Shown: in pieces, positions 102-56,235 of the stretch
Numbering within the stretch: the stretch's first letter is position 1
Layout of the letters: the number at the start of each line of letters is the position of its first letter
Origin: an uncultured Flavobacteriaceae bacterium
Lineage (GTDB): Bacteria > Bacteroidota > Bacteroidia > Flavobacteriales > Flavobacteriaceae
Reading direction: 5' to 3'
Length of the DNA: 64,000 nt
Assembly: GCA_947502635.1 (NCBI GenBank)
Contig: CANNAN010000009.1
Coordinates: forward strand, 124,001 to 188,000
Notes under the pieces: model-generated
Told to the model about the DNA's origin: nothing
What the model saw: the letters and a program-made list of their open reading frames with translations, nothing else
Databases searched by the model: none
Position numbers and translations under genes: made by a program

Positions 102-1757
102 ATGAAGAATTATTGTTTAGCATTTATTATCTTTTTTACGTTTTTTACATGTTTAAACGCACAAACACAATTAGGCGCTGATATTTATGGAGATGCTTCA
201 GGTGATAGTTTTGGAAAATATGTTAGCATATCAAATAGTGGAGATGTAATTGCGATAAGTGGGATGTACAATGATAATAATGGTAATAATTCAGGGCATG
301 TCAAAATTTATAAAAATATTTCTGGGACATGGACACAAATTGGAGATGATATTGAAGGGGTAAATACAAGTGACCAATCAGGAGCGAGTATTAGTTTATC
401 AAATGATGGAAATATTGTTGCCATTAGTGCTCCTTGGTATAATGGTATAAGAACTGATACTGGACATGTAAGAATTTTTGAAAATATATCTGGTACATGG
501 ACTCAAATTGGTAGTGATATAGAAGGTTCTCAGTTATATGAAAAAATAGGTACTTGTGTTCGCCTGTCTGGTGATGGCTCAATAATAGCAATTGGTGTTA
601 CAGGTAATTCACAGAATAATTCAGGTCATGTTAGTATTTATAAAAATATATCTGGTACGTGGACACAAATTGGCAATGATATAGAAGGTGAAAATATAGG
701 TGATTATTTTGGAGCTAGTGTAAGTTTATCTGATGCTGGTAATATAGTAGCAATTGGTTCAACCTATAATTCAGATAATGGAACTCGTTTTGGGCATGTA
801 AGGATTTATGAAAACATATCTAATGTATGGACTCAAGTTGGGAATGACATTAATGGAATAAGTAACATTTCTTTTAGCAAAAGTATTAGTTTATCTATTG
901 ATGGTAATATTGTGGCAATTGGAGCTACAGGTTATGATAATAGAAAAGGTTTAGTACAAATATATCAGAATGTAGCAGGAAATTGGACACAGGTTGGTGG
1001 TAATATTATTGGTAAATCAACATATTCATCCTCAGGCGATAGTGTAAGTCTATCTGATGATGGAACGGTTGTTGCAATTGGAGCTCCTGAAAGTAGCTCT
1101 GATAGAGGTTATGCAAGGCTTTATAAGAATATGTCTGGTTCTTGGGTTCAATTTGGTAATGACATTACTGGACTAATAAGTTATGACAGATTAGGAACGA
1201 GTGTAGGTTTATCTGGTGCAGGGAATATTGTTGCTATTGGAGCTGATCAAATATTTAGTGGTGATTCTAAAGGGTTTTGTAGTGTATATGATTTTAGTTC
1301 TGAATTAGCTTTGCTTGAGGTTAAAGATGATATACAAGGTAATGTCAATGGGGTTAATGTGACAGCTGCACAACTAAATAGTATTATTGGTGTATCTGGA
1401 GCAATAGAAGATGTGAATTATTCTCTAGCTTTAGCAGATGCAACCTTTGCAAACCCGAACAACCCTACCGCAATTGAAGTTCAAGCAGTAGTTGATTCAG
1501 TAAACAGTACTCTAAGTATAGAAGAAAATAAAGGAAATTATTTTAAGGTCTATCCTAATCCTGTAAAAGACATTTTAAACATTGAACTTAATAATGGTTT
1601 GGTTTTAAAAGAAGTTAATATTTACAATAGTTTAGGTCAATTTATGACTGTTTCTAGCAAATTGAAAATCATTACCAGTAAGTTTTCAAAGGGGATCTAT
1701 TTCTTGGAAGTAGAAACAAATGAAGGGAGCTCAACCAAAACTATTGTTGTGGAGTAA
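102..1757 (+). CDS. Secreted T9SS-sorted repeat (beta-propeller-like) protein
   Basis: A 551-residue secreted protein. The ATG at 102 is preferred over an upstream TTG because it opens directly onto a signal peptide (Lys near the start, hydrophobic run, then LNAQ). The body is about seven or eight imperfect repeats of roughly 55 residues, each with a core like SLSDDGNIVAIGA followed by GHVRIYENISGTWTQIG, the pattern of propeller-type integrin/FG-GAP or WD-like blades. The last 75 residues (from YFKVYPNPVKD to TIVVE) form a type A T9SS sorting domain, so the product is probably exported by the gliding/Por machinery and attached or released at the surface. Function beyond a surface scaffold or adhesin is unknown. 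Confidence 0.85.
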   Translation: MKNYCLAFIIFFTFFTCLNAQTQLGADIYGDASGDSFGKYVSISNSGDVIAISGMYNDNNGNNSGHVKIYKNISGTWTQIGDDIEGVNTSDQSGASISLSNDGNIVAISAPWYNGIRTDTGHVRIFENISGTWTQIGSDIEGSQLYEKIGTCVRLSGDGSIIAIGVTGNSQNNSGHVSIYKNISGTWTQIGNDIEGENIGDYFGASVSLSDAGNIVAIGSTYNSDNGTRFGHVRIYENISNVWTQVGNDINGISNISFSKSISLSIDGNIVAIGATGYDNRKGLVQIYQNVAGNWTQVGGNIIGKSTYSSSGDSVSLSDDGTVVAIGAPESSSDRGYARLYKNMSGSWVQFGNDITGLISYDRLGTSVGLSGAGNIVAIGADQIFSGDSKGFCSVYDFSSELALLEVKDDIQGNVNGVNVTAAQLNSIIGVSGAIEDVNYSLALADATFANPNNPTAIEVQAVVDSVNSTLSIEENKGNYFKVYPNPVKDILNIELNNGLVLKEVNIYNSLGQFMTVSSKLKIITSKFSKGIYFLEVETNEGSSTKTIVVE

Positions 1758-1895
1758 GTACTTTTTGCTTTAAAATTGTTCTTTCAGCATAGAAAATTTT
1801 CATTGACTAAAATTATGAAAGATGAATTTGGCGAAAGTGAAGAAGCTAAGGGCATTGATGAGAAATGCACTAAAGAATCCTTCAGGTTTAAATAA

Positions 1896-2234
1896 ATGAG
1901 ACAAATTCTAAGAGCCACTATACGTCCTATTTTTATTGGAATTCTATTTTACCTTTTTGTGTTATTAGCAAATAATTCAGGGGTTATCGCCGAAGATTTA
2001 ATTCGTACATGGACTACTTTAATAGCGGGAGTTCTTTTTTTATATTTAATCGCATTTGCAGCTATTGGATTTAGTGTAGCACATCTTATATTCAGTATTG
2101 GGATGCCAGTTTTTATGATTATAAATGAGGTATTTTTTGTTGACCACTCTAAAAAGCCTCCACGATCATTATTAGAAAAAGAAAATATTCAAATTATAAT
2201 AGATTTTAAAGAATGTCACAAAATAAAATACTGA
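1896..2234 (+). CDS. Small integral membrane protein, unknown
   Basis: A 112-residue protein with two or three predicted membrane segments (about residues 10-27, 40-62 and 66-82) and a short charged C-terminus. I recognise no family. It ends in TGA at 2232-2234, and the next reading frame (2244) is in the same phase, so the two could be one interrupted gene. It lies in a plus-strand run of small unknown genes between a T9SS protein and a GldL-like membrane protein. Confidence 0.6.
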   Translation: MRQILRATIRPIFIGILFYLFVLLANNSGVIAEDLIRTWTTLIAGVLFLYLIAFAAIGFSVAHLIFSIGMPVFMIINEVFFVDHSKKPPRSLLEKENIQIIIDFKECHKIKY

Positions 2235-2243
2235 ATATTTATA

Positions 2244-2507
2244 TTGGCATTTGATACTATAGTACGTTATTCTGAAAACAATAAAGATTACGAAATCGTT
2301 AAAACCTTTGAGTCTCAAATTACCAATAGAATAAAATGGTTAGACAGTTGCTCTTACGTACGATTAGATGATAGTAACGGTTTAACATCAGAATATATCA
2401 GACTAGGGAATTTTAAAGAAGGAATACATGATTTCTATTCTAAACCGACAAGCTTACATAAGTTATCTGATGAAAAAATTGAAATGGCTCGTGAGCTTAA
2501 AAATTAA
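2244..2507 (+). CDS. Hypothetical 87-aa protein, non-ATG start
   Basis: An 87-codon open frame rich in charged residues, with no membrane segment or motif I recognise. The only candidate start is TTG at 2244, nine bases after the stop of the previous gene and in the same phase. Either it is separately translated from TTG, or it is the 3' part of a gene interrupted by the TGA at 2232. The composition looks coding. Function unknown. Confidence 0.45.
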   Translation: MAFDTIVRYSENNKDYEIVKTFESQITNRIKWLDSCSYVRLDDSNGLTSEYIRLGNFKEGIHDFYSKPTSLHKLSDEKIEMARELKN

Positions 2508-2531
2508 TATTTGTTATCTATTGTAATCGCA

Positions 2532-3320
2532 ATGAATCCTTTTGTAATCTTCATTTTTATTATTTGCGGAATTTCAGTCCTATTTTGTTTGTATATAATG
2601 TTTAAACCCAGAACAAAGGAGGAAAAAGAATATGACAGAAAGCTTAAAGCAAGTTTAAAAGATGAATATATAATTGACCCAGAAACTGGAGCTAAATTAA
2701 CTTTAGAACAGGCGGAATCTGGGCATTGGATAGCTCATGATAATGAGTTTAATACTATTACAGAGGCGGAGTTAGATAAATTGCCTTCCGAAGGAGCAAA
2801 ACAAGCAGAATTGGCTTTGAATTATTTAAGAGAAAGTAAGAACTACAGAAAAACCAAATTCTCTGAAGAACAACTCAATATTTTAGAAGAAATAAAAACT
2901 TTAAGTAATCATGATGATTGGTCATATTCATATTTATATAAATTTGATGATGGCATTGTTTTCCTCCCTTCTGTTGAATTAAATTTAGCGGGTCATTATA
3001 GAGAGTCTCATTTAATGTTTTGGGTAAAAATAGATTCAATAAATGGGCATTACTATTTTACAGAGAAATCATCTTTAGAAAAAATATTTGACCTCATAAG
3101 AAATGATGACGAAATCAAATCAGATCATTATGAGTGCTTTACTTTGAAAAAGAGTTTTAACATTATACAGATTAATCGAATTCTAGAGATGTTTGAAAAA
3201 GAAAAAGGGTTGGAAGTTGAAATTGAAAATGACAATCTATTTATAAAAACACTTAAACTTGTCTCTTTAGAAGATATTATTAGAGTTGAACTAATAGTGA
3301 ATAAAATTATTAAGCTTTAA
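2532..3320 (+). CDS. Membrane-anchored hypothetical protein
   Basis: A 262-residue protein. The ATG at 2532 is chosen over TTG at 2511 because it gives a compact N-terminal membrane anchor (about residues 2-24). After the anchor comes a soluble region with a charged linker, a segment around YIIDPETGAKLTLEQAESGH, and a mixed alpha/beta C-terminal half. I do not recognise a family. It sits 22 bases before the GldL-like gene on the same strand and may be co-transcribed with it. Confidence 0.6.
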   Translation: MNPFVIFIFIICGISVLFCLYIMFKPRTKEEKEYDRKLKASLKDEYIIDPETGAKLTLEQAESGHWIAHDNEFNTITEAELDKLPSEGAKQAELALNYLRESKNYRKTKFSEEQLNILEEIKTLSNHDDWSYSYLYKFDDGIVFLPSVELNLAGHYRESHLMFWVKIDSINGHYYFTEKSSLEKIFDLIRNDDEIKSDHYECFTLKKSFNIIQINRILEMFEKEKGLEVEIENDNLFIKTLKLVSLEDIIRVELIVNKIIKL

Positions 3321-3342: not shown

Positions 3343-3858
3343 ATGAAAACTAAAAATTACAATTATGTTTCGATTATAATTATAGGTCTTGTAATAGCAT
3401 TAATAGGGTTTGTAGTTTCAAAATTCACTTATAGTCCAGACGCCGAATTTTGGACTCAAATTGGTCTAACAATAAGTGAGTTTGCTGGATTTCTTATGTT
3501 AATTCGCAATGGCACTTTTATTAGAACTAAATATTTCAGAATATTCAAGGGGGTGTTTGCTATTATTATCATTGGTGCATTAGCTAAAATATTACATTGG
3601 CAGTACAATAATATAATTATGATTATTGGTTTTGCATTAGCTGTATTAACTTATTTCTTTAGTTTTCTTAATAAACCGATTAGAAAAAGACTTGATTATT
3701 TAAAACTAGTTTGGGTTATTGTTGCTTATACAGGCACTATACTTAAAATTTTACATATTACCAGTATTGACTCTCAAATATTATCAAGTGCAATTATGTG
3801 GCTTGCCATAATTGACTACATGAAAATAGAAAGGGAAAAGCGAAGGTTGTTTGATTGA
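3343..3858 (+). CDS. GldL-like integral membrane protein
   Basis: A 171-residue protein with four or five hydrophobic segments and a charged C-terminus. The stretch around IIIGALAKILHWQYNN resembles the membrane segment of GldL, the T9SS/gliding motor protein of Bacteroidota. Several flavobacterial paralogues of this size carry the segment without the long cytoplasmic part of GldL. The protein is much shorter than true GldL, so I call it GldL-related only. It is the last gene of the plus-strand run and converges on the lipoprotein gene at 3860. Confidence 0.55.
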   Translation: MKTKNYNYVSIIIIGLVIALIGFVVSKFTYSPDAEFWTQIGLTISEFAGFLMLIRNGTFIRTKYFRIFKGVFAIIIIGALAKILHWQYNNIIMIIGFALAVLTYFFSFLNKPIRKRLDYLKLVWVIVAYTGTILKILHITSIDSQILSSAIMWLAIIDYMKIEREKRRLFD

Positions 3859-4744: not shown

Positions 4745-4886
4745 CTACTTCACATCTATTTTTTTTATAGACTATAAGTATTCCAAGTTCATCAATTTGA
4801 ATGGCGATGTCCCTGTACATTTTCCCTGCTTTGTTTTTTAATATTTCATGTTCTTCTTTTGGAGTATTTTGTAGCAATGCCTCCTC

Positions 4887-46373: not shown

Positions 46374-48095
46374 TTACAATACTTCTTTTTCGGCATACTG
46401 CAATCCGTTTGGTAATTCAATTGAAGAAAATTCTAAATGCAGAACACGTCGTCTTTTCTGAACGGTCGTTTCAGATGAAGCATGCAACAATAAAGGCTTT
46501 ATTAATTGAACACCTCCAGATCCTACCTCACTAACAAAAGGAATTGAATTGGTTGTGATTAATTTGATTTCCGCATCATTTAAACCTTTGTTGTGCGAAC
46601 CTGGAATCACTTTAAGAGCACCATTTTTTAACGTCGTATCATCCAAATGAATGCGTATAGAAAATGTGTTTTTTGAGATTTCCTCAGGTGGGCGAACACC
46701 AATCACCCCCTTCTTATTAGTCCACGAAGTGAACCCATTAGTTTCTATTTTCTTTGCAACATTAATTGGAATATCCTGATGCCAAGTCACATACCAATTA
46801 TCTTTAGGTGATTTATCAAAATAAATAGCCTTGGTTAAAAACACATCCTTATCAATCGATTTGATAAGCTTTTTAAAATTTTTATTAAATAAGATATCTT
46901 TTAATTCAGGCATTTTTAAAAGCACTTCGCGCATACCAAAAGCTTGTTCGCTGTTTTGTTTAATATAAGTATCAAATTTTGCTTTCAGTTTCCTAATATC
47001 TCGTTTCGAATATACATGGTTTAATATACCAAAGCCTTTATACTCCAATCGTTTTGCTATTGTTCGTAAGTTCTTATCATTAATTTCGGTCTCATAAGCA
47101 TCTACAGCATCATACAATCGTTCTTTAATGTTCCGCTTCAATCGCTCGGGAGCAATCACTTTCACACCTTCACCCAAACCAAGAATTTCTTTTTCTAATT
47201 CAAAATTTAGTTGAACTTCAAAAGCAATAGTCACGCCATAATTATCTCGACTTACCTCTTTTTGAGAATGATGAAATGGTTTCGTAAGCACATAAGGTGC
47301 ATGTTTATGATTCACATAAAGCATAACCGTTTCAGGTTCTAAATTTGGGCTTACAGAAACACCAATAACATTTTTATAATAGATTTCAGAATCAAAACCA
47401 GCGTTAAAAATAAATGGTTTATCGCTTCGTTCAATCGAAATAATTCGATCCAAAGCCAAATTCATTAAGCCTTCATTTTTTTTGCGTTGACCAATTACAA
47501 ACCAACGATTTCTAAATTCTTTTAGTAAATAAGGATAATATGTAAATGTGCTTTCCTGCCGTGCCTTGAACGACTGATATGTAATTTCTATAGCTTGCTT
47601 TTTTAGTATGAATTGATAGAGCTCATCTAAAAACTCTAAGCCTTTTAAGTTTTCATTTTTTTCAAAATCAATCAAAGATTTCTCCTGTGTTTTCTGTGTA
47701 TAAACATGATCTTCCAACTTTTGGACCATACTTCCTAATTCAGCAAAATGAGAAAAGCCTTGAAACTGTTTTAAAAACGACACAGCTTCAGATAATTTTG
47801 TTAAATCCTGATTAGAAATGGGGCTATTTGTAATGCTATAATTTTCATCTTCATACTTATAAAACTTTCGGTTATAAACCACAATTGGGGCGTTGTATCC
47901 CAATTTATCACTACGCATCATTTGCAAATCTAATTGTACGGTGCGTTTACTCACATCAACATCTTTTCCTTCATACTCGTAAAGCGCATCAGAAACCGAT
48001 TCAATCAAATCATTAAGCGTCCATTGTTTGTAGTTATTTTGAAGACATTGATCTATCGTTTTGTAACGAATTAATGCATTTTTATTGGCAGCCAT
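46374..48095 (-). CDS. WYL-domain regulator fused to phytanoyl-CoA dioxygenase domain
   Basis: A 573-residue uninterrupted frame. The N-terminal third has a winged-helix start (ALIRYKTIDQCLQNNYKQWT, DVSKRTVQLDLQMM). A WYL domain follows (about 140-235; IEITYQSFKARQESTFTYYP, RWFVIGQRKKNEGLMNLALD), then a WCX-type tail to about 330. The C-terminal 240 residues are a PhyH-type Fe(II)/2-oxoglutarate dioxygenase: WHQDIPI (His-x-Asp), HLDDTTLKNGALKVIPGSHN, the distal His in PLLLHASS, and a 2OG-type Arg region (KRRRVLHLEFS). WYL regulators often control RNA-repair, defence or DNA-damage genes. The gene is downstream of the CAP gene, whose promoter carries operator S1. Confidence 0.85.
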   Translation of the reverse strand: MAANKNALIRYKTIDQCLQNNYKQWTLNDLIESVSDALYEYEGKDVDVSKRTVQLDLQMMRSDKLGYNAPIVVYNRKFYKYEDENYSITNSPISNQDLTKLSEAVSFLKQFQGFSHFAELGSMVQKLEDHVYTQKTQEKSLIDFEKNENLKGLEFLDELYQFILKKQAIEITYQSFKARQESTFTYYPYLLKEFRNRWFVIGQRKKNEGLMNLALDRIISIERSDKPFIFNAGFDSEIYYKNVIGVSVSPNLEPETVMLYVNHKHAPYVLTKPFHHSQKEVSRDNYGVTIAFEVQLNFELEKEILGLGEGVKVIAPERLKRNIKERLYDAVDAYETEINDKNLRTIAKRLEYKGFGILNHVYSKRDIRKLKAKFDTYIKQNSEQAFGMREVLLKMPELKDILFNKNFKKLIKSIDKDVFLTKAIYFDKSPKDNWYVTWHQDIPINVAKKIETNGFTSWTNKKGVIGVRPPEEISKNTFSIRIHLDDTTLKNGALKVIPGSHNKGLNDAEIKLITTNSIPFVSEVGSGGVQLIKPLLLHASSETTVQKRRRVLHLEFSSIELPNGLQYAEKEVL

Positions 48096-50422: not shown

Positions 50423-50458
50423 TACGCAAAAAGACTGCGCACTGGTAAAAAACATTTG
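50423..50458. promoter_or_regulatory. Operator-promoter S1 (RNA-repair regulon)
   Basis: TACGCAAAAAGACTGCGCA (50423-50441), with TTTG of an ACATTTG -7-like box at 50455, exactly 14 bp from the operator end, as in S2 and S3. It lies between divergent genes, so it can control both the 50473 gene and the CAP/WYL-dioxygenase operon (minus-strand -7-like TATCTTTA near 50407-50414). Confidence 0.75.
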
Positions 50459-51471: not shown

Positions 51472-51999
51472 ATGGACACACATTTGTTAAATAATTATGT
51501 GCTGAAAGCTATAGATGCCTATCCATATGATTTAGAAGAAACAGTAGAAAATTTAAACTACGCTTTATCATACGAATCCAATAATGCTTATGCGCTTTTC
51601 TTAATGGGGAAATTACAAGCAGAAAAAATTGGAGATTACGAAACGGCTAAGTTGTATTTCGCTGAAGCTTTGGCATCAAAAATGGATTTTCAAAAGGTAT
51701 ATCCCAAATATATTCAAACTTTGTTATGGAATGATGATTTAGATGAAGCTCAAAAATTAATAGACTTTGCATTAACCATAAAAGGTATAGACAAAGGTGC
51801 TATCTGGGATAAACAAGGACAGCTTTTTGAAATAAAACAAGCATATAAGAAAGCAATAAAAGCATATAAAACAGCAAAAGTATTTGGTTACAACGATTCA
51901 TTTATAAACTACACCGATGATGAGATTAGTAGAATAAAAAGTAAGTTAAAACCAAAGAAAAAGAAAAGTGCTTCTAAAAAAAAGAAGAAAAAAAAGTAA
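51472..51999 (+). CDS. TPR-repeat protein with Lys-rich tail
   Basis: A 175-residue soluble protein with about four TPR units: LEETVENLNYALSYESNNAY, YALFLMGKLQAEKIGDYETA, LIDFALTIKGIDKGAIWDKQ, YKKAIKAYKTAKVFGY. It ends in a poly-lysine-like tail (KKKKKSASKKKKKKK). The tail suggests RNA or ribosome contact. It is placed directly before operator S2 and inside the RNA-repair island, so an accessory role in the same system is plausible. No further function can be assigned. Confidence 0.75.
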   Translation: MDTHLLNNYVLKAIDAYPYDLEETVENLNYALSYESNNAYALFLMGKLQAEKIGDYETAKLYFAEALASKMDFQKVYPKYIQTLLWNDDLDEAQKLIDFALTIKGIDKGAIWDKQGQLFEIKQAYKKAIKAYKTAKVFGYNDSFINYTDDEISRIKSKLKPKKKKSASKKKKKKK

Positions 52000-52011: not shown

Positions 52012-52047
52012 TACGCAGAAACATTGCGCAATAGTATAAAATATTTG
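52012..52047 (+). promoter_or_regulatory. Operator-promoter S2 (RNA-repair regulon)
   Basis: TACGCAGAAACATTGCGCA (52012-52030), then TTTG at 52044, spaced exactly 14 bp as in S1 and S3, with ATATTTGCAG as the -7 region. Predicted start near 52053. It drives the hairpin/tRNA-like leader and the 624-aa gene. Confidence 0.78.
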
Positions 52048-52093: not shown

Positions 52094-52122
52094 ACTCCAC
52101 CAGACGCGGATGCTGGTGGGGT
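52094..52122 (+). other. Strong leader hairpin
   Basis: ACTCCACCAG - 9-nt loop - CTGGTGGGGT, a 10-bp stem with one G-U pair, about 40 nt after the predicted start from S2 and 34 nt before the tRNA-like fold. No T-run of terminator length follows. It may be a processing or protein-binding element. Confidence 0.6.
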
Positions 52123-52156
52123 TTAATAAAAACGTTCTTTAAAATTATAAAAAAAC

Positions 52157-52271
52157 AGTTCGGTAGCTCAGTGGTTAGAGCAACAGAAATTACTTTGCGC
52201 AAATAAGCATACAAAGTTCCTAAAAAACTTTAATCTGTGTGGCGCAGGTTCGAATCCTGCCCGAACTACCA
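52157..52271 (+). tRNA. tRNA-like RNA with 39-nt insertion in the anticodon loop
   Basis: Canonical tRNA parts are all present: acceptor AGTTCGG/CCGAACT (7 bp), T8-A9, D-arm GCTC-AGTGGTTA-GAGC with the GG pair, anticodon stem ACAGA/TCTGT, variable loop GTGGC, T-arm GCAGG-TTCGAAT-CCTGC, discriminator A and encoded CCA. The anticodon loop is 46 nt (52188-52233) rather than 7. Without the extra 39 nt the RNA would be a standard 76 nt. The insert can fold as ACTTTG...CAAAGT or, exclusively, as AAAGTT...AACTTT. It lies in the leader of an RtcB-linked operon, so an intron-like, bait or sensor tRNA is possible. The amino-acid identity cannot be told. Confidence 0.72.
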
Positions 52272-52283
52272 TTATAAATCACT

Positions 52284-52448
52284 GACATAGAAAGTTCCTA
52301 TAAACAATCATTTAAAGAAATTACTTTCCGTTAGTAAAAAGACAAAAAGAGTTCCTATATCTGGTTCGATTCCAGAGCTCGAAAGAGCTTGCAGTTAATT
52401 TATACTCTTCGTCTTTTAAAATAGGTAAAAGGAGTTCCTATATACACC
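52284..52448 (+). ncRNA. Second leader RNA module with T-arm mimic and repeated motifs
   Basis: Contains CTGG-TTCGATT-CCAG (52361-52375), a T-arm look-alike, joined directly to AGCTC-GAAA-GAGCT (52376-52389), a GAAA-capped stem that could mimic an acceptor helix. The motif AGTTCCTATA occurs at about 52292, 52350 and 52433, with a variant AGTTCCTAAA inside the tRNA-like insert (52215). GAAATTACTTT-s-CG occurs both in that insert (52186) and at 52317. The repeats are seen; a shared recognition or cleavage function is inferred. Confidence 0.5.
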
Positions 52449-52455
52449 TCCAAAA

Positions 52456-54330
52456 ATGAATACTCCTCACTTATTTAAAATATTAAAAATGAAAACATTA
52501 AAATTATTTAACGCGATAGTAGCAAAAACATCAAACGAAAAACCATACATCTCAGAAGATGGATTCATAATTGAATCAAATGCACTTTGGGCAAAAGACA
52601 AGATTATCGCCTTTTTTAAAAATGAAAAATTAAACGGTAACGGTTTAAATAAGACATTTCATAAATCTTGGTCTAAGATCAAAGAAAGTACACAGCATGA
52701 ATTATTCTTAGATCAAATTTCTCATTACATATCTACTTATGCAAGTGATTTTCAGGATGAAGTTTACATCCCTAAAGAAGTCTTGAATATTCCAGAAATA
52801 AAGCTAGTTTATAAGATAATTAAAGCATATTCTATTGATGAAATGAAGCAAAAGTGTTTGTTTATGCTTCAATCTGGTATGGCATTGAAAGAAGATACGG
52901 TAAACGATCTTATTTTAGTATTAGTTGATGAGTTAGGCTATACATTTACAGGAAAAGAGGGCATTAAGAATAAAGAAGCTATTGTAAAATTAGCCGAATA
53001 CTATAATATATACCCAGAAAGTGCAGTTGAATTTTTTAGATACATTATTTATAAAACAACAGATACTACATTATTAATAAAAAATGAAAAGTTAATTGAA
53101 TTGATTAAAAACAGTTCATATAACCCAACACAAGCCTTTGGCAGTTTTGGTCTAGAAAAACTTGCTAAAATCTTTAATAGATTCAAGCCTTTGTTCTTGG
53201 CTTTCAAAAATAGAGCACCAAAAACGATTAATAAAATAAGTAAACTTTCTAAAACACACCACAAGCCATTGGTTTCAAATCCGTTAAACGATGTGACTAA
53301 TACAATAATAACAGACAAAGATGTACATTGGTTAGATAACGCAACACCATTTGCTTTGTTTAAGGCTTTATCTGCTTGTTACAATAGAAAACAAGGGCAA
53401 GACGCCTTTTTGTATAAAATTAGAAATGGTAAGTCTTGGGTGAAATCTAGCGAAACCACAATTATAGACAACAAGAATAATCAATTTTTAAGCTTTATAA
53501 AGCAGAAAGCTAATCCATCTAAAAAAGAAATCAATGTTTTAGAAAATACAATTTACACAAAAAATTATATGTTTTTGTTAAACTATATAAAGCAACGATT
53601 TGATTTATCTGGCAAAACGATCTTTCTTCCAAAGAACATCAAGTATGCATTACCAACCTCGGAAAAAATGTATATAGGAAACATTCCTGTAGGAACACGT
53701 TTTTATGGTAAAAAATTAGCTATTGGCGTTTATTGGGAAAATGCTTGGGGAGCTCATGATTTGGATTTATCTGGTTTAAATATTGCTGGTAAAATAGGTT
53801 GGAATGCGACTTATAATCAACAAAAAGGTAATTTGATGTATTCTGGAGATATTACATCAGCGCCTGAAGGAGCTGTAGAATATTTGTATGCAAACAAAGG
53901 ACTTAATGCGCCAACGTTGATTCAAAACAATGTCTATTCAGGAAATGCAAATAGCGGCTACAAAATCATCATTGGTCAAGGAGATTCGGTTTCTAACGAT
54001 TTCATGATGAATCCAAACAATTTGTTTGCAGATATCAAATGTGAATCTGTACAAAAACAAACTATTTTAGGCCTGTTAATCCCGAAAAAGGAGGGAAAGC
54101 AATGCTTTGTGCTATTAAATTTTGGTGCGGGTCACGCTAGAGTTTCTGGTAATTCTGAAGTATCAAATTTAGCAACAAAAGCACTTTACCAGCAATGGAA
54201 TAAGCCATTATCGTTTGGTAAATTTATAAAGTCCTTGGGAGCAGAACTTGTTAATGATAGAACAGAAGCAGATTATGATTTTTCCTTAGAAACTTTAGAA
54301 AAAGATAGTTTTTTGGAGCCTTTTAGATAA
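52456..54330 (+). CDS. RtcB-island protein with helical repeats and TerD-like C-terminus
   Basis: A 624-residue soluble protein. ATG 52456 is the longest start; ATG 52489 (MKTLKLFNAIVAKT) may be the real one. Residues about 80-300 are helical repeats with KIFNRFKPLFLAFKNR and a basic segment KISKLSKTHHKPL, like HEAT/TROVE-type RNA-binding modules. Residues about 440-620 read RFYGKKLAIGVYWENAWGAH, DLDLSGLNIAGKIGW and GDITSAPEGAVEYLY, a pattern like TerD-family domains. It follows the tRNA-like leader under operator S2 and precedes rtcB. I infer an RNA-binding or sensing role for the leader RNA; there is no proven function. Confidence 0.75.
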   Translation: MNTPHLFKILKMKTLKLFNAIVAKTSNEKPYISEDGFIIESNALWAKDKIIAFFKNEKLNGNGLNKTFHKSWSKIKESTQHELFLDQISHYISTYASDFQDEVYIPKEVLNIPEIKLVYKIIKAYSIDEMKQKCLFMLQSGMALKEDTVNDLILVLVDELGYTFTGKEGIKNKEAIVKLAEYYNIYPESAVEFFRYIIYKTTDTTLLIKNEKLIELIKNSSYNPTQAFGSFGLEKLAKIFNRFKPLFLAFKNRAPKTINKISKLSKTHHKPLVSNPLNDVTNTIITDKDVHWLDNATPFALFKALSACYNRKQGQDAFLYKIRNGKSWVKSSETTIIDNKNNQFLSFIKQKANPSKKEINVLENTIYTKNYMFLLNYIKQRFDLSGKTIFLPKNIKYALPTSEKMYIGNIPVGTRFYGKKLAIGVYWENAWGAHDLDLSGLNIAGKIGWNATYNQQKGNLMYSGDITSAPEGAVEYLYANKGLNAPTLIQNNVYSGNANSGYKIIIGQGDSVSNDFMMNPNNLFADIKCESVQKQTILGLLIPKKEGKQCFVLLNFGAGHARVSGNSEVSNLATKALYQQWNKPLSFGKFIKSLGAELVNDRTEADYDFSLETLEKDSFLEPFR

Positions 54331-54350: not shown

Positions 54351-54386
54351 TACGCAGAAAGACTGCGCAATATGCTATAATATTTG
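54351..54386 (+). promoter_or_regulatory. Operator-promoter S3 upstream of rtcB
   Basis: TACGCAGAAAGACTGCGCA (54351-54369), then TTTG at 54383, spacing 14 bp. The same 19-bp inverted repeat and geometry occur at S1 and S2, which defines a regulon. Position over the -33 region fits a repressor or activator dimer. Confidence 0.8.
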
Positions 54387-54394
54387 TAGCGTAA

Positions 54395-56235
<1,841 letters not shown>

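Follow-up and report, generated by a model that had tools for sequence, protein, structure and literature searches.

Genes and RNAs at the locus

The window, a 64,000-nucleotide stretch of a contig from an uncultured Flavobacteriaceae bacterium, carries an RtcB gene, a candidate regulator gene, a gene for a candidate RNA-binding protein, and several structured RNAs. The features are as follows, with positions counted from the first letter of the window.

46374 to 48095, minus strand: WYL/WCX regulator fused to a PhyH dioxygenase-like domain, candidate regulator (Pfam)
50423 to 50441, no strand assigned: third copy of an operator-like palindrome, upstream of ORF 50473 (pattern scan)
51472 to 51999, plus strand: TPR protein with a basic tail, a conserved neighbor (tblastn matches in the L012, G597, and G383 loci)
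52012 to 52030, no strand assigned: operator-like palindrome upstream of RNA 1 (pattern scan)
52157 to 52271, plus strand: RNA 1, tRNA-like; acceptor, D, and T arms all complete, CCA encoded, module in the anticodon loop
52188 to 52233, plus strand: 46-nt anticodon loop of RNA 1 (cmscan alignment and sequence)
52192 to 52221, plus strand: permuted module (scan and covariation)
52281 to 52335, plus strand: RNA 2, module hairpin (module scan and sequence)
52337 to 52417, plus strand: RNA 3, circularly permuted tRNA-like domain closed by the module (module scan and sequence)
52420 to 52475, plus strand: leader module, candidate autoregulatory site (module scan and sequence)
52489 to 54330, plus strand: candidate RNA-binding partner protein with an N-terminal helical and a C-terminal TerD-like domain (ORF and alignment)
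54351 to 54369, no strand assigned: operator-like palindrome upstream of rtcB (pattern scan)
54407 to 55798, plus strand: RtcB RNA ligase (PF01139; E = 1.1e-37)

The initial annotation had described RNA 1 as a tRNA with an encoded CCA and 46 nt in the anticodon loop. Both features are present. We ran cmscan on the whole window. RF00005 matched positions 52157 to 52268 on the plus strand (56.4 bits; E = 1.7e-9), and the CCA follows directly 3' of the match, at 52269 to 52271. By eye, CCA after the discriminator base is missing from the other tRNA-form RNAs shown and is thus no feature of the family. ARAGORN did not call RNA 1 in the window, presumably because of the long loop, and Rfam scans of the window gave no match to a group I intron. 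When RNA 1 of the window was folded with RNAfold (z score, -2.99), the acceptor, T, and module stems were retained, and the middle preferred a fold other than the cloverleaf. The best match of the tRNA body in its own genome was tRNA-Phe, a weak match from a comparison with part of the 47 tRNA matches. A AACGTTCTTT box lies immediately 5' of the tRNA-like RNA in the window (52095 to 52142) and in L012, L013, L014, and L015 (5/5), and by eye a G+C-rich hairpin precedes the box in the window, L012, and L014. Box and hairpin ahead of a tRNA-like RNA form what we take to resemble an antitermination leader.

We found that the insert is a recurring RNA module made of a 6-bp upper stem, a 3-nt/C internal loop, a lower stem, and UCCU, whose order is circularly permuted in RNA 1. 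There it reads, as RNA, ACUUUG-C-GC(loop)GC-AUA-CAAAGU-UCCU; the corresponding DNA is ACTTTG (52192 to 52197), C (52198), GC-loop-GC (52199 to 52208), ATA (52209 to 52211), CAAAGT (52212 to 52217), and TCCT (52218 to 52221). Between RNA 1 and the partner gene the module occurs three times unpermuted, in RNA 2, RNA 3, and the leader. Its 5' half then runs lower stem, AAA or AUA, 6-bp upper stem with a final U, and UCCUAUA, and its 3' half runs loop, upper 3' strand with a first A, C, and lower 3' strand. In RNA 1 the lower stem is capped, and the module opens toward the anticodon stem. RNA 3 has the reverse arrangement, an open lower stem and a permuted tRNA part in which the T arm (TCTGG-TTCGATT-CCAGA) is followed by an acceptor stem (GCTC) under a GAAA cap; its D-arm region is degenerate in the window. 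In the counterpart of RNA 3 in phage S-CRM01 (L016, 7624 to 7741), the T arm is complete, UUCG caps an acceptor stem of 9 bp, and the D arm is, by eye, canonical. Phage locus L031 carries further permuted-tRNA RNAs, one found by script and a second by eye. RNA 1 and RNA 3 thus look like one object opened at different places. The initial annotation was right about a conserved RNA of tRNA origin with a link to RtcB; it did not mention the circular permutation, the RNAs nearby, or the partner protein.

The leader module ends 13 nt 5' of the ATG that we took as the start of the partner gene, and relatives carry equivalent module copies just 5' of the gene. The longest form of the ORF begins at 52456, inside the leader module; we chose 52489 because relatives align from there. 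The partner protein had no credible relative in Pfam, NCBIfam, or the PDB sequences, the last tried with both sequence and profile, and no match in PHROGs. Its AlphaFold2 model has a pLDDT of 87, and the C-terminal half of the model matched TerD (3ibz; Foldseek E = 1.4e-4; probability, 1.00); Pfam gave no TerD match to the sequence. Modeled alone, the N-terminal helical half reached a pLDDT of 74.7 and a best Foldseek E value of 0.26, with no confident solved RNA-binding fold among the matches listed. Among predicted viral structures, the whole chain resembles uncharacterized phage proteins, including one from Campylobacter virus IBB35 (E = 3e-18) and one from Lactobacillus phage LpeD (E = 2e-13).

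RtcB had been placed 2 kb downstream of RNA 1 under a common operator. The rtcB gene indeed starts 2.1 kb downstream of RNA 1, and palindromes of the form TACGCA-N7-TGCGCA, found by pattern match alone, precede both and occur a third time at 50423, in agreement with a shared operator. No palindrome was present in the short stretches of L058, L060, and L061 (3 of 11 window-type loci). RtcB is encoded at 10 of the 11 bacterial loci of the window type; seven, the window counted, have a close type (70 to 88% identity to the window RtcB), and three have a distant type (27 to 29%). No RtcB was found within the 9 kb examined at L014.

The same circuit appears to extend to other RNA-binding proteins. 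A TACGCA...TGCG(C/T)A palindrome, again by pattern match alone, occurs at 7 of 10 TROVE loci. Relatives of the WYL regulator (about 47 to 60% identity) lie beside four window-type loci (L113 to L116) and beside a second system in genome G628, described below, and they adjoin TROVE genes in 5 of 10 TROVE genomes. Judging from neighborhood, three different RNA-binding proteins in the phylum appear to plug into one regulatory circuit.

Several further observations concern the surroundings of these loci. Large tRNA arrays lie by RNA-repair genes in Bacteroidota at L012 (3016 to 4734), L013 (915 to 2658), L015 (758 to 2488), L111 (11549 to 14866), and L112 (1695 to 4989). L013 also encodes an apparent RNA ligase and CCA-adding-type and other nucleotidyltransferases, all named by eye. 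Oddly spaced tRNA-like stretches, called by neither cmscan nor ARAGORN, lie 5' of the tRNA-insert RNA at 4800 to 5570 of L013 and 4800 to 5570 of L015. In genome G122 (L012, 6631 to 7329 and 7882 to 8961, both minus strand), a PrfH-like release factor, identified by eye, adjoins the second, distant RtcB type.

Conservation of the RNAs and association with the partner gene

We aligned 17 tRNA-insert RNAs from 15 loci (alignment A3). On the stated structure, 96.3% of the cells were paired, and 20 of 29 pairs showed changes on both sides; part of the rows had been picked by acceptor, D, and T pairing, so the pairing of those helices is partly selection, and the module helices were required only of rows first found by the module scan. 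The covariation score was 0.498, compared to 0.158 for shuffled alignments (0 of 500 shuffles as good), and sliding the pairing partners abolished the covariation. Changes on both sides were found in the acceptor, anticodon, module, and T stems. Two hairpins had been proposed for the insert, and these fared differently. ACTTTG/CAAAGT, the upper stem of the module, was 96.1% paired, with five of its six pairs changed on both sides. The second, AAAGTT/AACTTT, forms 6 bp in only 2 of the 17 RNAs (the window and L027) and is therefore probably due to chance. The RF00005 gathering score was reached by L012, L014, and L015 and missed by L013.

We searched for the partner protein in genomes, phages, and plasmids. 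Matches were found in 2 of the 299 genomes drawn from the family (its own genome and G122) and in 7 of 395 genomes of the phylum, its own counted. Further relatives were found on three named contigs and in three distinct phages (five records); in the three named phages, the gene sits in tRNA clusters. An alignment-based scan of IMG/VR gave 36 contigs with relatives, two of which are copies of these phages. The viral scan with the single window sequence found no relative, and tblastn of plasmids with the window protein gave no match. Protein alignment A2 holds 35 of the 40 proteins in a pool of the window, L013 to L015, and 36 viral proteins; L025, L026, L029, L034, and L046 were left out.

To the module we applied a scan of 44 nonduplicate loci within 1.2 kb of the gene, leaving out the near-duplicates L025, L029, L034, L039, L042, and L046. 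Of the 145 candidate 5' motifs that lie on the gene strand, 78 had an exact downstream partner, compared to 0 of 61 on the opposite strand. Swapping partners between loci gave 335 of 6,819, and this 4.9% is likely an overestimate because the null includes arrays with common stems. The 78 partnered modules have 30 distinct upper stems. At least one direct module was present at 35 of the 44 loci; the nine without one within 1.2 kb are L018, L022, L024, L041, L044, L045, L047, L050, and L054. L022 and L024 are fairly close homologues, and the array at L018 starts about 1.2 kb beyond the gene end. This array, in phage Phass-1 (L018, 10970 to 11890), is a row of six module-like hairpins, three found by script and the others by eye, followed by an apparent tmRNA gene (by eye). 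With a looser criterion for the permuted form, the gene strands of the 44 loci gave 14 matches and the opposite strands 8, so this criterion alone is not discriminating.

The initial annotation had proposed a covariance search in other Bacteroidota. In 395 genomes of the phylum, the tRNA form (at least 80 bits; range, 80 to 112) was found in 6, all among the 7 that bear the protein, and the next best match had 73.9 bits and ordinary tRNA length (both among the matches listed). The association has a Fisher p value of 1.4e-12, which assumes the same 395 genomes in both searches and comes from genomes that are mutually related. Genome G498 has module hairpins and lacks the tRNA form. The R1 covariance model gave RNA 1, itself a row of R1, 112.4 bits. 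When R1 was run on the 395 genomes with stricter filters, no tRNA with module 1 appeared beyond the model rows among the matches listed. On the loci, with the duplicates L039 and L042 left out, all 18 matches of at least 80 bits were model rows or the duplicate L029, and L030 and L031 scored 52.2 bits. The R1 genome search showed that the association is specific and led to a sister system in G628.

A sister system with SCO0854-like proteins

An odd 117-nt match in the R1 genome search led us to this second system. The G628 protein has 746 aa and matches the MXAN_6230/SCO0854 model distantly (127.7 bits; cutoff, 600), and two tRNA-insert RNAs precede its gene. We examined six Bacteroidota genome loci (G628 and five found in 247 genomes), and all six carry tRNA-insert RNAs. 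The sister system lies as follows.

L094, minus strand: upstream tRNA-insert RNAs at 3417 to 3839 and SCO0854-like 746-aa protein at 935 to 3175; further loci L102 to L106

By eye, the sister module reads AGGU-CAA-8-bp stem-UACUUC...CAUU-ACCU, and it too is permuted inside the tRNA. The sister loci L094 and L102 to L106 also hold a permuted tRNA-like RNA and hairpins with the module GGUCAA...UACUUC. Hhalign of the window family against six SCO0854-like proteins gave a probability of 96.3% (E = 1.6e-9; 521 columns). By profile comparison, the window protein and the SCO0854-like family are thus distant homologues over shared domains.

We also looked at plasmids and phages. Both Bacteroidota plasmid loci examined (L117 and L118, a count that excludes the sister-family relative H17) carry long-loop tRNA matches immediately 5' of the gene, one of 112 nt and one of 123 nt. 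Variovorax and Streptomyces plasmid loci of the related protein family gave no tRNA match. On the Variovorax plasmid (L119, 1 to 5166), the gene for a RING finger family 4 protein lies close to, and divergent from, rtcR, an activator of RNA repair. Rhodococcus phage Weasels2 (L121, 5275 to 5664) has an array of module-2-like hairpins with a circularly permuted tRNA, both seen by eye, after a protein that matches the SCO0854-like family; RtcB is encoded 3 kb downstream.

A proposed scaffold RNA, its rivals, and known systems

We propose, with a probability of about 70%, that RNA 1 is a tRNA-mimicking scaffold RNA of an RNP for RNA repair, like the Ro60/YrlA RNP in idea and different in its protein and in the grip on its RNA. 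Such a scaffold is more likely than a working or spliced tRNA. According to this model, the 52489 to 54330 protein would bind the module, which sits on tRNA bodies in two arrangements of equivalent topology, either in the anticodon loop (RNA 1) or closing a capped, permuted tRNA (RNA 3), as well as on a simple hairpin (RNA 2) and on the protein's own leader. The position of the leader module, ending so close to the start codon, suggests autoregulation, in which free protein at the leader would probably repress its own translation. By analogy with YrlA, the tRNA bodies may offer their acceptor/T/D surface to enzymes that handle tRNA, for example RtcB or nucleases, and may steer these to damaged tRNA. 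Under RNA damage, the gene set would be turned on by the WYL regulator.

The alternative that survives best, and still an improbable one, is a decoy for anticodon nucleases, in which the tRNA shape titrates or reports a nuclease and RtcB reseals the product. The tRNA body is kept, RtcB is linked, the three named phages encode the protein within tRNA clusters, and a role as competitive inhibitor has been proposed for YrlA (PMC8394870/PMC7790460). Against this, a script that looked only for CAU found such an anticodon loop beside the insert in L012 to L015 and in none of the remaining 13 of the 17 RNAs; moreover, the protein-linked module and its copy in the leader point to a binding partner, for which a pure decoy would have no need. 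A decoy or sensor role is possible as a subfunction of the scaffold.

The initial annotation also suggested a spliced tRNA, with the insert excised as an intron and the halves joined by RtcB into a translating tRNA. We consider this quite unlikely. RtcB is nearby, several loci adjoin tRNA arrays, and L012 to L015 have an intact CAU anticodon stem-loop with the insert, by eye, in the 5' strand of the anticodon stem; in L014 the inner pairs are compensatory (CGG/CCG, by eye). However, a CAU loop, the one anticodon loop looked for by script, was present in only 4 of 17 RNAs, and this led us to reject the intron as a general explanation. The module is also found free, in the neighboring hairpins and the leader, and on a capped permuted tRNA that could not be spliced to a tRNA, and the structure of the insert is conserved from phages to Bacteroidota.

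There is very little chance that the locus is a true Ro60/YrlA system with a highly diverged TROVE protein and ordinary Y RNAs. The idea of the architecture and the operon context are alike, and some TROVE loci also have a relative of the WYL regulator. However, Pfam gave no TROVE match in the partner protein, hhalign against nine TROVE proteins gave 0.3%, and the C-terminal structural match is to TerD. Foldseek gave no Ro60 structure among the best 50 of 721 and the best 50 of 305 matches, and module 1 was found in 0 of 20 TROVE locus pieces (10 genomes). The own genome has no TROVE gene, and we rejected TROVE membership. Finally, a decayed tRNA gene with a chance insertion, which the missing ARAGORN call might suggest, is refuted by the homologues with conserved, covarying stems among the 17 rows; the association with one gene also speaks against it.

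A broader form of the scaffold reading, which we hold to be slightly better than an even bet, is that TerD-domain proteins and their RNAs make up a second RNP class independent of Ro60 and Y RNA and convergent on their design, with a swappable protein-specific grip, tRNA bodies in either permutation, and control of the protein's own mRNA, present in cyanobacterial and actinobacterial phages and in Bacteroidota. It would have at least two branches, the window type and the SCO0854-like type, with different grips and one layout. Only the site of chain opening distinguishes the two permutations, so RtcB could in principle interconvert them. The idea of a tRNA-mimic scaffold is known, and there is a real chance that this class is an independent one. 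If the scaffold reading is true, Ro60 is not alone in having a tRNA mimic as scaffold at RNA-repair loci, and a second protein family with its own RNAs, in plain and permuted forms, shows how a Y RNA can be derived from tRNA. TerD-domain and SCO0854-like RING proteins would gain a concrete candidate RNA ligand, and the long-open role of bacterial RtcB would become testable in a new setting.

Among the matches listed from open-licence papers, we found no report of the tRNA-form RNA, the module, or RNAs for SCO0854-type proteins. A 2016 survey of RNA repair by Burroughs and Aravind reportedly has Y RNAs with TROVE proteins and a novel tRNA-like RNA with Band-7 proteins. Passages of one paper (PMC9964418) name S-CRM01 and S-CBWM1 as tRNA rich without mention of module-type RNAs.

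The window protein shares a TerD-like C terminus with MXAN_6230/SCO0854 (NF041916), and Bacteroidota loci of SCO0854-like proteins carry tRNA-insert RNAs. In contrast to that family, it has no RING by Pfam and no NF041916 match at an E value of ≤1; the Bacteroidota SCO0854-like proteins themselves score 110 to 128 bits, below the cutoff of 600. The modules differ as well, with CAA/CAUU and UACUUC in SCO0854-like systems versus AAA/C and UCCUAUA in the window type. Introns in archaeal and eukaryotic tRNAs and group I introns in bacterial tRNAs are alike in lying at or near the anticodon. Unlike them, the window insert is a recurring module also found free, and it has no Rfam group I match.

Listeria phage CKA15 is described as encoding, downstream of tRNA genes, a protein that its authors matched to Rsr via HHpred, along with abundant unannotated RNAs and putative Y RNAs (PMC12282133). 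As far as that description goes, the locus is similar in having a phage-encoded RNA-binding protein by tRNA genes with RNAs, the binding being predicted for the window type. Searching phage records by tblastn with three proteins of the window and sister families gave no Listeria phage.

The closest known system is YrlA with Rsr/Ro60 and rtcBA in Salmonella and D. radiodurans. YrlA combines a tRNA-like domain with an Rsr-binding stem, and an rsr-yrl-rtcBA operon is the precedent for the layout (PMC8394870, PMC7790460). On these accounts, each system has an RNA that combines tRNA-like acceptor, D, and T arms with a stem for protein binding, and in each the genes for the binding protein and RtcB lie with that RNA; for the window the binding is predicted. 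The tRNA-like domain typical of bacterial Y RNAs is present in the window as the RF00005 match of RNA 1 and as the permuted T arm and capped acceptor of RNA 3, and rtcB linkage, as in the Y RNA/Ro60 RNP, is found in the window and most related loci. Rfam scans of the window gave no Y RNA match, and Rfam may not cover bacterial Y RNAs. Unlike Ro60, the window protein was placed in TROVE by neither sequence nor profile comparison, and its grip motif, the 3-nt/C internal loop with UCCU, looks like its own. Also unlike YrlA, one of the window RNAs is an unpermuted, complete tRNA, and the module recurs in an mRNA leader.
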